47,810 bases of DNA, from contig JADQBM010000094.1 of assembly GCA_016278615.1 (NCBI GenBank), positions 1 to 47,810 on the forward strand. Reading direction: 5' to 3'. Made by a program: the position numbers and the translations under genes. Below are positions 7,160-13,645 of this stretch, piece by piece. The notes below the pieces were generated by a model. That model was not told the DNA's origin. It saw nothing but the letters and a program-made list of their open reading frames with translations, and did no database searches. This DNA comes from Clostridia bacterium. GTDB lineage: Bacteria > Bacillota > Clostridia > Peptostreptococcales > JAAYPU01. Positions within the stretch are counted from its first letter, which is position 1. Every line of letters starts with the position of its first letter.

Positions 7160-8164
7160 TTAAGCTCGAATCGATATGTCTGCATGCTTCCTTGGCATTA
7201 TATTTATTTTGACTTCTTCTGTATTCCATCTTCCACATTTGTCTCCGAAACAACCTATCACTTTTTCTTCATCATATAGAGTCGCTACCTCACATTTATT
7301 TGAACACATATCACACTCAAAGCTCTTTGTTTTAATGAACCCATCTGCCAATACAAAACCTTTAAACTTTGTTCTTATATTCTCTTTGCTGACTGCTTTT
7401 TTTGCCAGTATTGCTGCCCCTACCGCTCCCATTACATCATAATATTTTGGAACCATTACTTCATATCCTAATTCCTTTTCAAAGGCTTTTTTTATGCCTA
7501 CATTCGCTGCTACACCACCTTGGAAAAAAATATTAGGAAGTATTTCCTTTCCTTTTGCAACATTATTCAAATAATTTCTTACCATGGCATGACATAATCC
7601 ACATATGATATCTGATGGGTCATAGCCTAATTGCTGCTTATGGATCATATCTGATTCAGCAAACACCGCACATCTGCCTGCAATTCTTACAGGTGCACTT
7701 GACTTCAATGCATAATTTCCAAACTCTTCGATGGGTATCTCCAATCTTTCTGCCTGTCGGTCTAAAAAAGAACCTGTGCCCGCTGCACAAACTGTATTCA
7801 TAGCAAAATCTGTTGCAATACCATTTTTTATTATAATAATTTTTGAATCTTGTCCTCCGATTTCTATCACCGTACGTACTTGTTTATTCATGGATACTGC
7901 GGCCATAGCATGTGCCGTTATCTCATTTTTTACAACATCAGCTCCAACAAGGAATGATGCCAGCACCCTTCCACTTCCTGTCGTTCCCACTCCTCGTATT
8001 ATGCTATTGCTATATTTTTCATTTAATATCTTAAAACCTTCTTGAATAACCTTTATTGGTCTACCCTTCGTCCTAAGATATAACTTGTCTATTAGATTTA
8101 AATCATCATCTATAACCACTATATTGGTGCTTACGGAACCTACATCAACTCCGAGATAATGCAT
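7160..8164 (-). CDS. BadF/HgdC-type ATPase activase (acyl-CoA dehydratase activator)
   Basis: This is an ASKHA-fold ATPase that drives one electron from ferredoxin into 2-hydroxyacyl-CoA dehydratases or benzoyl-CoA reductases. Visible motifs are GVDVGSVSTNIVV (N-terminal phosphate loop), EIGGQDSK and a C-terminal FFQGGVAAN. The two Cys residues that hold the bridging [4Fe-4S] cluster in HgdC are present (VCAAGTG and AGRCAVFAE, residues 126 and 165 from the chosen start). A C-terminal extension has five more Cys (CDMCSNKC and CFGDKC), suggesting an added metal site. I chose the ATG at 8164 because GGAAAGGAG lies eight bases before it; a longer frame to 8191 lacks a site. It overlaps the upstream gene by 20 bases. 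No dehydratase subunit genes are in the window. Confidence 0.88.
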   Translation of the reverse strand: MHYLGVDVGSVSTNIVVIDDDLNLIDKLYLRTKGRPIKVIQEGFKILNEKYSNSIIRGVGTTGSGRVLASFLVGADVVKNEITAHAMAAVSMNKQVRTVIEIGGQDSKIIIIKNGIATDFAMNTVCAAGTGSFLDRQAERLEIPIEEFGNYALKSSAPVRIAGRCAVFAESDMIHKQQLGYDPSDIICGLCHAMVRNYLNNVAKGKEILPNIFFQGGVAANVGIKKAFEKELGYEVMVPKYYDVMGAVGAAILAKKAVSKENIRTKFKGFVLADGFIKTKSFECDMCSNKCEVATLYDEEKVIGCFGDKCGRWNTEEVKINIMPRKHADISIRA

Positions 8165-9242
8165 ATTCGCGTCTCCTTTCCAGCAAATCAAAGAATGCCT
8201 CTACTCTTGTTATAAACCCTGCTTCACCTGTCATTTCATCTATAATTAGAGTCATTATAGGAAAATCTTTATCCTTGGATATGGATTGTAATATTACTTT
8301 TGAAACGATTTCTGGCATACATCCCATAGGAAATAATTGTATTGCACCATCTGACTTTTCTTTACTGGCTAAAAGCGCTTCCCCTACGCACTCTCTTCCA
8401 TGCCCACCGATATAATAGGGCAAATACTCGCGAGATGCTCTTCTAATTCTTATTGAATTTAATTTTATGGGTCTAAGTACTGCATCCATCAGCCACCAGT
8501 CTATGGATAAACTTTTTTTGATGCTTATCCCATAATCCATCAACTTGTTTTGAATATACAGATTTGAAAAAGGTTCAATAACAGTGTAAATTTCTCCTAT
8601 AATTGTTATGGTAATTGGGTTTTTTGTCTTATCAATTGGTATTTTATTGATTTTCTGATTATAAAACTTCAAAATATTTAAAGCCCTATCCGGGTTATTT
8701 GTTTGAATCACTTCATTTTTACACGCATTTAAAATTTCTTTATGTTCTCCTTTATTAATTTCATATCCACATCTAAAAAGAGCTTTTTTTTCTATGTTTT
8801 CTATTAGTCTAATGGCTATTAGGGTTTTACCTAAGGCTTTCCACTTTTCCATCTTACTTTTTGGGCTTTGTCGGGATATTTTATTAACCCTATTTTTAAA
8901 CGCCTCTTTCCCAATTTCTTTTGGTTTCTCAAGAACGATAAAATCCAAATCATATCCCAAGTTGCTTAATATATCTTTTTGCAATTCACAATATTCTCCA
9001 AACCTACACGGGCCGTTGCTCCCAATTAAAGCGATTGTATCTGCACCGTTTTTTATGCTTTGTATATAGTTACCCATCATTATTTTGAAGGGAAGGCATA
9101 TTTCTTCAGGAGAATATAAGGTTCCAATTTCAAGTGCCTCATTGCTATTGATGGGTGGTATTACATAATCTATTCCCAATCCATCAAACAGAATCTTAAT
9201 GGGTATATAAGTGTTTCCGAAATGAGGAAATGTTATCTTCAG
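8145..9242 (-). CDS. Acyl-CoA dehydratase activase-related protein (COG3581 type), CTG start likely
   Basis: This is the second piece of a split activase system; in other bacteria these parts are fused with the ATPase into one very long protein. Conserved stretches are YSPEEICLPFKI, GSNGPCRFGEYCELQ, YIGGHGRECVGEA and FPMGCMPEI, whose Cys residues could hold Fe-S clusters. The first ATG (9179) removes about 21 residues. Upstream codons still read KITFPHFGNTYIPIK, which is the family N-terminus. In that frame the only option is CTG at 9242, directly after an in-frame TAA and nine bases after AAAGGA. I therefore place the start there (365 residues). The gene overlaps its upstream neighbour by 47 bases. 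Confidence 0.8.
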   Translation of the reverse strand: MKITFPHFGNTYIPIKILFDGLGIDYVIPPINSNEALEIGTLYSPEEICLPFKIMMGNYIQSIKNGADTIALIGSNGPCRFGEYCELQKDILSNLGYDLDFIVLEKPKEIGKEAFKNRVNKISRQSPKSKMEKWKALGKTLIAIRLIENIEKKALFRCGYEINKGEHKEILNACKNEVIQTNNPDRALNILKFYNQKINKIPIDKTKNPITITIIGEIYTVIEPFSNLYIQNKLMDYGISIKKSLSIDWWLMDAVLRPIKLNSIRIRRASREYLPYYIGGHGRECVGEALLASKEKSDGAIQLFPMGCMPEIVSKVILQSISKDKDFPIMTLIIDEMTGEAGFITRVEAFFDLLERRREYALSRS

Positions 9243-10137
9243 TTAAATCATTCCTTTCTATCAGCATGCTAATAAAAGCTTCAATTCTTGTATCCATCCC
9301 TGCTTCTCCAGTATGTTCATCGATTTTCAGTACTAAAAAGGGGAAATCTTTTACCCTGTTTTTAATGAGTTCAATGGATACAGAATCAATTCCACACCCA
9401 AATGAGGAAACATATATGATGCCATTGGCATTGTAGTTTTTGTAAATATTCATGCAAAAACCATAGGAATTTTTTGTAAAATCCCAAAAAGGCTTTTTAA
9501 ATAAGGGCTCCCATTGATCCTTAAAAGGCTCTTTTGAAAGTACTTCTTCAGTTATAACCCCTACACCCATATTGTTTAGTTTTTTAATGATATTCATGTT
9601 AAAAAAAGAATCATGTATGCAGTAGGGATGCCCCACTAAAGCTATTTTATTATCATACTGTTCATCTTCTATTCCAAGAGAATAGGCTTCTTGAGCTCGT
9701 ACTGCTTTTTTATAGGCTTGACGAATTTTATTATTACTATTGGTTATATTTTTTCCAAGTCCAAGAACCCATTTTTCAAGTTTCTTTTTCGAATCCATAT
9801 AGATGGGATTATATGTTATAACAGGTATATTTGAAATGCTATTAGCAATCATTTCTGGAAGACCGCAAAATTTAGGGCAGATAAATTCCCCTCCCTTTTC
9901 TTTTATTATTCTGGGAATGATCATTAAATCGCATTTATCTGCTATAGATGCCACATGGCCATGATATATTTTAATGGGTAAACAAGCTTCATCAATACAA
10001 CATTTAACCCCTAAATTAAGAATTTCTTTGTTGGTTTTTTCAGAAAGTACTATTTCAGCATCCAATTCATCTAAAAATGTCAATATAAAAGGGTGATATC
10101 TAAAATACAATAGCCCTCTTGGCACACCGACTTTTAT
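9196..10137 (-). CDS. DUF2229-type activase-related protein (COG3580 type), ATA start likely
   Basis: This is the first gene of the three-part split activase. It has the DUF2229 signature: PRGLLYFRYHP at the N-terminus, DEACLPIKIYHGH, then CPKFCGLPEM. Later come GHPYCIHD, SSFGCGIDSV and DEHTGEAGMDTRIEAF. These Cys-rich boxes resemble those of dehydratase-type Fe-S proteins. The first conventional codon is GTG at 10125, but AGGAGG lies 19 bases away from it. The codon seven bases after AGGAGG is ATA at 10137, giving (M)KVGVPRGLLYF, which fits the family start exactly. I give the ATA start as the likely one. The role, in support of a radical dehydratase activator, is inferred from the family. 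Confidence 0.8.
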   Translation of the reverse strand: MKVGVPRGLLYFRYHPFILTFLDELDAEIVLSEKTNKEILNLGVKCCIDEACLPIKIYHGHVASIADKCDLMIIPRIIKEKGGEFICPKFCGLPEMIANSISNIPVITYNPIYMDSKKKLEKWVLGLGKNITNSNNKIRQAYKKAVRAQEAYSLGIEDEQYDNKIALVGHPYCIHDSFFNMNIIKKLNNMGVGVITEEVLSKEPFKDQWEPLFKKPFWDFTKNSYGFCMNIYKNYNANGIIYVSSFGCGIDSVSIELIKNRVKDFPFLVLKIDEHTGEAGMDTRIEAFISMLIERNDLTEDNISSFRKHLYTH

Positions 10138-10227
10138 ACAACCACCTCCTAAAATACTTGAACTTCAATTATTATTACCTTTTGCCAAAAAAAATATCCC
10201 GTAACTAAGATTCTTGTAGTTGTACTC

Positions 10228-11124
10228 TTACTCTGAATCTACTACAATAGATTCCCCATAAACCTTTTGACTAAAGAGATTCTCTGCTTCTTGAATACTC
10301 AATCCCATAATATTAAGCTTATTGATATCGCTTTCACCAATTTTCTTTTGAGAAAGAAGATATAAATAATGAATTGCTTGGGGCTTATAACCCAATAGCC
10401 TGGCACAAACTGAGTCGGTTCCTACGGGATTATTTCCGCATATAACAATGCCTGTATGCTTCGGAATTCCTTTTGTAGGCCCTGTGCCGACCATGGCAGG
10501 ATTTGCACTTACTACAGATAAATGAATAGGCACTTTTTCTGCCATGGCACAGATGAAACCATGTAAATCCTCATGAATCCCTAAATTTTTCTTTGGTGTC
10601 CCCTGCTCTTCTGCGGAGGGCCAGGTTAAAGCCATATTTTTTATTGCCCCAGACATAGTGGCTTCTTCATGAAATTTTAATTGGGTGAAGGAAATATAAA
10701 TTGTCATTTCTTTCATGATCTGATTTACTTTTATTTTATTAGGTCTAGAATGATTTAACTCCATATCTATATAGGGACCCGTATTAAAATCTACGAATTC
10801 AAATCCTTCTTCCTTAATAATTCGATCATAACCTAATGCCTTCATAACGCCAGGAGTATCTCCATTTCCAGATCCAGAGGCTACAATCATTCTCTTAGGT
10901 TTTTTCTTTTTTATCCATTGCAACATAAAGCTAAAAGTATCCGTTCCCACTGTGACTCCTGAAGACGAACTGGGCTTTTTAGAATTTACCCAGTTTGGAG
11001 ATATAACAACTGTGGATGAATTTTGAATTAGCTCATCTGCCTTTATTAATTCCAATCCTTGTGATACGGCTATTCTTTCATTTTCATTGGCCATAATGGC
11101 AATGTCTTTATTTTTATATTCCAT
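10228..11124 (-). CDS. DUF362-domain protein
   Basis: This 298-residue cytoplasmic protein matches the DUF362 family. There is an N-terminal Rossmann-like part, then IVASGSGNGDTPGVMKALGYD (about residues 80-100), KFHEEATMSGAIKNM (about 149-163), and an aspartate-bearing NNPVGTDSVCARLLGY near the end. DUF362 is often joined to ferredoxin domains; this copy has none. The biochemical role is unknown. It lies 90 bases upstream of the split activase genes and reads in the same direction, so it is probably co-transcribed. Some DUF362 proteins take part in Fe-S or iron-dependent redox modules, which would fit the setting. Confidence 0.8.
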   Translation of the reverse strand: MEYKNKDIAIMANENERIAVSQGLELIKADELIQNSSTVVISPNWVNSKKPSSSSGVTVGTDTFSFMLQWIKKKKPKRMIVASGSGNGDTPGVMKALGYDRIIKEEGFEFVDFNTGPYIDMELNHSRPNKIKVNQIMKEMTIYISFTQLKFHEEATMSGAIKNMALTWPSAEEQGTPKKNLGIHEDLHGFICAMAEKVPIHLSVVSANPAMVGTGPTKGIPKHTGIVICGNNPVGTDSVCARLLGYKPQAIHYLYLLSQKKIGESDINKLNIMGLSIQEAENLFSQKVYGESIVVDSE

Positions 11125-11338: not shown

Positions 11339-12391
11339 ATGCTTAGTAATGAATTAACCACAACACCTGACATTAATGACTTATTGGACAAAGTTCAACT
11401 ACTTCTTAACAACATTTCCGAAGTAGAAAATCAAAACACAGAAACCATTAACATTTTTAAGGAACATTTCACAAATATCAACGTATCATTCAGTGATATT
11501 TCATCTAGCATTGAAGCATTAAATAAAAAATCAGGAATCATAGATGATATCGTTGATGTCATTAGTTCTGTTGCACGCCAAACCAATCTCTTGGCAATCA
11601 ATGCTGCAATTGAAGCTGCACGAGCTGGACAACATGGGCGCACCTTTGCAGTAGTAGCTGAAGAAGTAAAAAAATTATCTGTTCAAACTTCAAATTCAGC
11701 AGTTAATATTAAAAAAATCGTGGATGAGATTCAATCCGAAATTTCTGTAGCAAAAAATAATATGGATTCAATTGAAAGCTCCTTCGGTCAGATAAACTTC
11801 AAAAATAGAGACTTGAAAAAGGATTTGGGAATTGATACAAAGAGTATAGAAAAATCTGTAGAACAATTGAATCTGCAAGTTAAAAAAAGCTTTAATTTTC
11901 AAAATTCACGTTCAAATCCAAAAAAGTATTATAATGAAATTCAAAATGTTATTGAAAGAATCTCTGAAAACACATTAAAAACAAACACAAATCTATTTGG
12001 GGTGTATTTTCAAATAAACCCTGAATTGTTAACACATTTACAGTCAGATGATCTTGGAGTAGGCATTTATTCTTTCTGGGAAAATGAAAAAGTATCCAAC
12101 CAAAAATCTCTCTATCTTAAAGATTTTACACCTTCTAACTCTTATATGTTCTGGTATTATAACCCCATTAATGCCCGCAAAGGCGTTTGGAGTAATATCT
12201 ATTTTGATCCTTATTCCAACAAAGAACTAATTTCATTTTCTTTGCCTTTATATATAGAAAACCAATTTATTGGTGTAAGTGGTGCAGACATCGATTATGA
12301 ATATTTCCGTAAAATGTCACAATCTGCATCCATGAACGATCTTAAAGAAAGCATAAACTTGCTTTCAAAATACGCATTAATAGAGGACTAA
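11339..12391 (+). CDS. Soluble chemoreceptor-like protein with C-terminal PDC/Cache-like sensor (copy 1)
   Basis: This 350-residue protein has no membrane segment. Residues about 15-180 form a short methyl-accepting-chemotaxis coiled-coil hairpin. Its tip carries [19 protein letters not shown] (79-97) and [14 protein letters not shown] (100-113), the CheA/CheW contact region. Residues about 205-322 read like the ligand-binding core of a PDC/Cache sensor: [26 protein letters not shown], the [15 protein letters not shown] strand pair and [14 protein letters not shown]. The order is the reverse of a normal chemoreceptor, and the sensor would be in the cytoplasm. A close paralogue follows at 12605. 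The start ATG follows AAGGATGGTG. Confidence 0.85.
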
Positions 12392-12415
12392 ATACAAAGA
12401 ATCAATTTTACAAAG

Positions 12416-12446
12416 AAAAAATCCTTTAAATAAAAAGGATTTTTTT
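12416..12446 (+). terminator. Rho-independent terminator after chemoreceptor copy 1
   Basis: AAAAAATCCTTT pairs with AAAGGATTTTTT around a short A-rich loop and ends in a T-run. The two paralogues are therefore separate transcripts or only partly read through. Confidence 0.8.
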
Positions 12447-12604
12447 GTATGGGATCTTTCGAAAAAGAATAACAAAGGGCATTGTAGCAAATAAATTTTC
12501 TAAATATTTCGACATAATAAATCATTTTTCAAACATCCTTTAAAACATCTGTCCTCTAAAATGAGAACAAAGTTGTTAAATATAAAAAAAGGGGTGAATC
12601 GAAA

Positions 12605-13645
12605 TTGACTAATGATGTTAAAGTAGAAGAAATTAATGAATTATTGAAAAAAATAAAAGTACTCATTGATAGTTTAGGTGATATGGGGGACCAAAATATA
12701 GATATGATCAATGTTTTTAAGCAACATTTTTCTGAAATTGATACAGTTTTCTCTGAAATATCCTCCAGTATTCAGTCGTTACACAATAAGTCAGGCATCG
12801 TTGATAATATCACGGATGTTATCAGCTCAGTCGCCAGACAAACCAATTTACTCGCAATCAACGCCTCTATTGAAGCTGCACGTGCTGGCGAGCATGGCCG
12901 TACTTTTGCAGTAGTAGCAGATGAAGTAAAGAAATTATCTGTACAAACATCTAATTCCGCAATTGATATTAAAAAAACTGTTGACGAAATACAATTAGAA
13001 ATCAGTTCTGCTAAAAATAATATAGAAATAATTGGCAGTTCCTTTGGACAACTAAGCTTTCAAAGCAAAGATCTTCAGAAAGATTTGGGGTTATATGGCA
13101 AAGAAATGGAACGTTCGGTTTCAGACATGCTTAATAAAATAGAAAAAGTTTATTCTTCACATCACTTTTCTTCAGATGTAAATACATCCTTCAATCAGTT
13201 TCAAAATTCAATCGATCAAGTTTCTGAAACCATAATAAAATCCAACACAAACCTCCTTGGGGTCTATTTTCAAACCAACCCACAGCTTCTTAACCATTTA
13301 AAGCCCCATGATCTTGGAATAGGTGTTTATTCTTTTTGGGAGAACGGTAGAATAGAAAAAATGAAGGCTTTGCGCATCAAGGATTTCACCCCTTCCAACT
13401 CTTATATGGCTTGGTACTATAATCCGGCCAATGCACGCAAAGGTCTCTGGAGCAGCATCCATTATGATTCCTACTCCAAAAAAGAACTCATATCTTATGG
13501 CTGTCCTTTATATAAAAACTCCCAATTAATCGGTGTCGGCGGAGCAGATATTGATTATGAATATTTTAGAAAAATGTCACAAAAGGAACTTATGAATGAT
13601 ATTACTGAAAATATAAATCTACTTTCTAAATATGGAATGGATTAA
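12605..13645 (+). CDS. Soluble chemoreceptor-like protein with C-terminal PDC/Cache-like sensor (copy 2)
   Basis: This 346-residue paralogue of the preceding gene has the same build: no membrane segment, an MCP hairpin with tip [20 protein letters not shown], then a C-terminal PDC-like sensor with [19 protein letters not shown] and [14 protein letters not shown]. The tip and sensor are very alike in the two copies. The linker (about residues 140-200) and part of the ligand face (the GCPLYKNSQ region against SLPLYIENQ) differ, which suggests different ligands. The start is TTG, seven bases after GGGGTGA. A clear terminator follows at 13688. It may feed a cytosolic CheA/CheW array, but no che genes are in the window. 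Confidence 0.85.

Follow-up and report, generated by a model that had tools for sequence, protein, structure and literature searches.

Two tandem genes in the window (the whole analysed stretch of 47,810 nucleotides, contig JADQBM010000094.1 of a Clostridia bacterium) encode soluble proteins in which an MCP signalling hairpin comes first and a single PDC module follows. We consider it likely that both are cytosolic chemoreceptors that feed CheA, with a captured PDC placed after the C-terminal arm and sensing a small intracellular metabolite.

Domain order and solubility of the pair

Both ORFs are complete and lie in tandem on the plus strand, and their products are 60% identical (Table 1). Pfam placed MCPsignal (PF00015) at residues 51-206 and MCP-like_PDC_1 (PF22673) at residues 206-321 in gene 1, and at 44-207 and 208-319, respectively, in gene 2, which confirms for both copies the reversed domain order (MCP hairpin, then PDC) that was described in the original prediction. 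All four domain matches far exceed the curated cut-offs, the PF22673 scores being 51.7 bits in gene 1 and 45.4 bits in gene 2 against a cut-off of 27. A 3.5-residue hydrophobic periodicity was strong in both hairpin arms (p <= 0.0005), and the PDC part was without any. The sensor is attached after the C-terminal arm, i.e. at the base of the hairpin, as had also been proposed.

With 19-residue windows, the top hydropathy in either protein was 0.96 and a value of 1.0 was never reached; genuine TM helices of related receptors gave 2.0-3.5. Since the stop-to-stop frames contain 351 codons (gene 1) and 361 codons (gene 2), there is no upstream room and a hidden N-terminal TM segment is impossible in both genes; the earlier claim that neither paralogue has a membrane helix therefore stands. 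AlphaFold models from two-sequence alignments had a mean pLDDT of 43.5 and 39.7 (helices at 8-95, 97-150 and 320-346 in the low-confidence model of gene 1), and as these models are too poor, it is the sequence profiles that support the PDC assignment.

Table 1. Features of the two receptor genes, in window coordinates
Feature	Residues	Position	Strand	Evidence or remark
Gene 1, soluble MCP-PDC receptor (P0001), 350 aa		11339..12391	+	ATG start
Gene 1 MCP signalling hairpin	8-187	11360..11899	+	PF00015 E 1.5e-28; heptad periodicity
Gene 1 hairpin arms	N arm about 8-95, C arm about 97-187			
Gene 1 hairpin tip (kinase/coupling-protein contact)	76-116	11564..11686	+	
Gene 1 linker	188-202	11900..11944	+	segment comparison of copies
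Gene 1 single PDC (dCache_1 membrane-distal type)	203-327	11945..12319	+	PF22673 E 1.4e-13; 9HVJ
Gene 1 C-terminal tail, predicted helical	328-350	12320..12388	+	sequence inference
Gene 2, paralogue (P0002), 346 aa		12605..13645	+	TTG start
Gene 2 MCP signalling hairpin	6-185	12620..13159	+	PF00015 E 1.4e-28; heptad periodicity
Gene 2 hairpin tip	74-114	12824..12946	+	
Gene 2 linker	186-200	13160..13204	+	
Gene 2 single PDC module	201-325	13205..13579	+	PF22673 E 1.2e-11
Gene 2 C-terminal tail	326-346	13580..13642	+	

The PDC module, its pocket and the divergence of the copies

Among solved structures, a direct sequence comparison placed 9HVJ nearest to the PDC (E 8e-7), a dCache from a Roseburia receptor that binds uracil and acetate, and the membrane-distal module of 9HVJ matched profile A3 of eight PDCs with an E of 2e-29. 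This match, together with PF22673 scores above the cut-off, supports the predicted PDC/Cache nature of the C-terminal domain. The second, membrane-proximal PDC is absent: only 23 (gene 1) and 21 (gene 2) residues remain after the PDC, and Pfam gave no second Cache match in either protein. Judged from these comparisons, the PDC represents the membrane-distal half of dCache_1, present here with no partner module. The dCache_1 TM chemoreceptors (dCache_1UR as in 9HVJ, and the dCache_1AM amine receptors) have a membrane-distal PDC homologous to that of the pair, but differ from the pair in possessing TM helices, two PDC modules and a sensor that precedes the MCP part.

In the PDC tree, the two copies pair on a long private stem within the membrane-distal PDCs from TM receptors, and their nearest neighbor, with weak support (91/66), is an output-less TM receptor of the same genome on contig C104; derivation of the window PDCs from this dCache receptor was not established. 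The C104 gene (locus L141, 8739-10184, minus strand) encodes a 482-aa TM dCache protein with two TM helices and no detected MCP, kinase or GGDEF output domain, and it adjoins genes resembling dihydropyrimidinase, a carbon-nitrogen hydrolase and a transporter.

The dCache_1UR residues of 9HVJ comprise the specific R116, T145, N178 and N180, plus F129, W160, Y176 and D205 (PMC12415202). We found counterparts of W160 and D205 in both copies (W272 and D317 in copy 1), whereas at the Y176 position copy 1 keeps Tyr (Y288) and copy 2 has His (H286), and the counterpart of F129 differs by alignment (W247 or G242). The uracil-specific residues are replaced (R116 by Q225, T145 by L258, N178 by D290 and N180 by Y292). 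In dCache_1AA amino-acid sensors an Arg is located two residues before WY, as in PctA R126/W128 (role of R126: PMC10104139), and this position is M270 in copy 1 and M268 in copy 2. Lacking the uracil-specific residues as well as the amino-acid-type Arg, the PDC is by motif neither a uracil nor an amino-acid sensor. In a partial motif mapping, the Trp and Asp shared with dCache_1AM were present in both copies and the Tyr in copy 1; these retained residues appear to be part of a framework that the amine/uracil clade shares, and the candidate ligand may be an amine or another small metabolite.

Between the copies, the hairpin core (residues 65-135) is 86% identical and the linker (188-202), the most divergent segment, 20% identical, in agreement with the original description of a conserved tip and a divergent linker, while the PDC reaches 66% and the outer arms 41-44%. 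Whole-gene dN was 0.28 versus a near-saturated dS of about 2.1, with a dN of 0.10 in the core and 0.23 in the PDC, and both copies are under purifying selection. The differences near the pocket are Y288H, F271A, F300Y, S301G, L302C and S314G, most pocket positions being identical, and a different specificity of the two copies is plausible at most.

The large loss of ligand-class motif residues (Q225, L258, D290 and Y292 in their place, and Arg missing two residues ahead of W272) also suits a reading in which the PDC is a dimerisation, anchoring or localisation module and the proteins are structural hairpins that tune array size or activity, for which the C-terminal end of Helicobacter pylori TlpD, which matters for polar localisation (PMC13001251), is a further argument. 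We regard this as unlikely, because the PDC is better kept between the copies than the outer arms and the linker, and because the pocket residues W272, Y273 and D317 are retained.

Signalling hairpin, chemotaxis partners and genomic context

The tip of gene 1 matched the PDB MCPs 2ch7 and 1qu7. Compared with AFQTNILALN in the TM receptors of the genome, the ten-residue tip motif of the pair has R80 where those have Phe (AFQTN), and Ile-Asn instead of Leu-Asn, so mixed trimers with the TM receptors are not assured; moreover, the arms of the pair appear short, about 90 residues each, and may fit badly with the longer TM receptors. A consensus scan found no CheR/CheB methylation sites, strict or loose, in either copy (unusual sites are possible), and consensus sites in the eight TM receptors of the genome. 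The receptors are probably non-methylated and, given that no methylation-site consensus is present, would be without methyl adaptation of their own.

Six CheW-domain ORFs were found in the genome, one of which is a 719-aa CheA-sized frame on contig C23 with a CheR gene beside it, and flagellin genes are also present. Four CheW genes (C6:54872, C6:58536, C38:49770 and C52:13849) each lie downstream of a TM receptor gene of their own, at most about 400 bases away, and one further CheW gene adjoins the CheA-sized frame. No che gene was found near the pair, whose closest neighbors are an acyl-CoA dehydratase activase-like cluster, DUF362, an HlyD-type fusion protein and a histidine kinase. Upstream of the pair (window 7160-11124, minus strand), a BadF-type activase, two split HGD-D/DUF2229-like proteins and a DUF362 protein stand in a row. 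SigD-type flagellar sigma promoter sites showed no excess above chance, and sigma-70-like promoter sites were at chance level.

A function outside chemotaxis, with the hairpin sequestering CheW/CheA or controlling some other output, is favored by the missing methylation consensus, the short arms, the substituted tip positions and the absence of a che gene nearby; we give it rather little probability, since the tip shows strong conservation and a single CheA-sized frame, CheR and flagellins are encoded in the genome.

Distribution, known systems and proposed mechanism

Among 98 genomes, mostly of the same order, full-length matches were confined to the window's own genome, and no match was present elsewhere in 391 genomes of the class and 398 of the phylum, and across these sampled Bacillota genomes, about 890 in all, no second MCP-then-PDC protein came up; some of these genome searches score no more than a few top candidates in each genome and could let divergent examples escape. 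Seed-peptide scans of 84,980 GTDB species genomes, which need conserved short peptides and could likewise pass over divergent examples, gave no relative with the same architecture, and neither did searches of viral contigs, plasmids (tblastn with the full protein and the PDC) and phages (tblastn). The genus of the window's genome is represented by one genome. In the nearest PDC relatives, a TM helix directly precedes the PDC in 28/28 and an MCP tip precedes it in 0/28. The short PDC ORFs L050/L147 (304 aa) and L112 (327 aa), considered as similar proteins, are actually interrupted TM receptors. The layout is apparently rare for a PDC-type sensor. The lack of an ortholog in the sampled relatives and genome scans might point to a functionless product, either a chance fusion between an MCP gene and a dCache gene or a relic of them in decay; this is highly improbable given two intact copies with near-saturated synonymous sites and low dN in both core and PDC, and gene decay was rejected on this selection signal.

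Two other soluble receptors were observed on contig C38. The first (C38:9141-10673, minus strand, locus L139, 511 aa) has the MCP hairpin first and another sensor-like domain at the C-terminus, a tip of AR[QH]TN and no strict methylation consensus; its last 190 residues are weakly like a type-3 substrate-binding protein (4zv1 E 0.002, 5bwj E 6e-4), and no relative was found at E 1e-30 in 291 genomes of the class. It resembles the pair in its soluble N-terminal MCP hairpin, but its C-terminal part is weakly SBP-like and not a PDC. The second (C38:46429, a 336-codon frame, locus L012) is a soluble MCP in the ordinary order, with the MCP domain last and an N-terminal sensor-like region that gave no confident Pfam match.

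In bacteria, extracellular sensing relies mainly on Cache domains, which are considered to signal across the membrane via a C-terminal helix. In Bacillus subtilis YkuI, the EAL output comes first and the Cache-like YkuI_C after; this protein is like the pair in being cytoplasmic and in having its Cache-family domain behind the output domain, but its output is EAL instead of MCP and its Cache-like domain is of another family. While 78% of Cache domains are confidently extracellular, the two small families YkuI_C and Diacid_rec are mainly intracellular (PMC4822843). Chemoreceptors that carry their ligand-binding domain at the C-terminus form a little-studied subfamily with at least 17 domain types, of which CZB is by far the most populated (PMC7390727), and by Pfam the pair shows the defining trait of this subfamily, a sensor after the MCP domain. 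In H. pylori TlpD (433 aa) and Salmonella McpA (352 aa) an MCP domain is followed by a C-terminal CZB (PMC13001251); both are soluble, as is the pair, with the MCP signalling domain, then a C-terminal sensor and a helical tail, and McpA is close to the pair in size, but their sensor is a zinc-binding CZB and not a PDC/Cache. The novelty of a C-terminal sensor on a chemoreceptor was thus overstated in the original prediction: since C-terminal-sensor chemoreceptors and intracellular Cache families are both known, the reversed order has precedents, and so has an intracellular Cache. What our searches suggest to be particular to the pair is the combination of an MCP hairpin with a C-terminal PDC of the PF22673 type, which was not found elsewhere in the searched genomes.

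As working precedents, TlpD and McpA support the reading of the pair as soluble receptors with N-terminal signalling and a C-terminal sensor, whereas the mismatch to known ligand motifs, the tip substitutions, the short arms and the lack of an ortholog count against cytosolic receptors. For such receptors we infer dimerisation, ligand binding, array entry, the direction of coupling and cytosolic sensing. The PDC would have been captured from a TM dCache receptor and fused to a soluble hairpin, with duplication afterwards. Each receptor would dimerise, and its hairpin tip would join CheW and the single CheA of the genome, while the PDC after the C-terminal arm would bind a small intracellular metabolite. 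The ligand may shift the long N-terminal helix of the PDC, which would be continuous with the base of the C arm via the short variable linker, and this shift would alter the packing of the hairpin and hence CheA activity. The receptors may lean on their neighbors in a mixed array, or may report a slow metabolic state.

A broader proposal, which we find conceivable but doubtful, is that the pair represents an undescribed architecture, a lone membrane-distal dCache module serving as cytoplasmic sensor at the C-terminal base of an MCP hairpin that lacks adaptation, that the C38 MCP independently gained a PBP-like domain, and that extracellular-type sensors were recruited repeatedly for internal metabolites. 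If, in the pair, the N-terminal helix of the PDC transmits the signal to the base of the soluble hairpin, the polarity of Cache coupling would be reversible, and a small soluble protein (350 aa) would be at hand in which ligand-to-hairpin signalling could be studied without a membrane.
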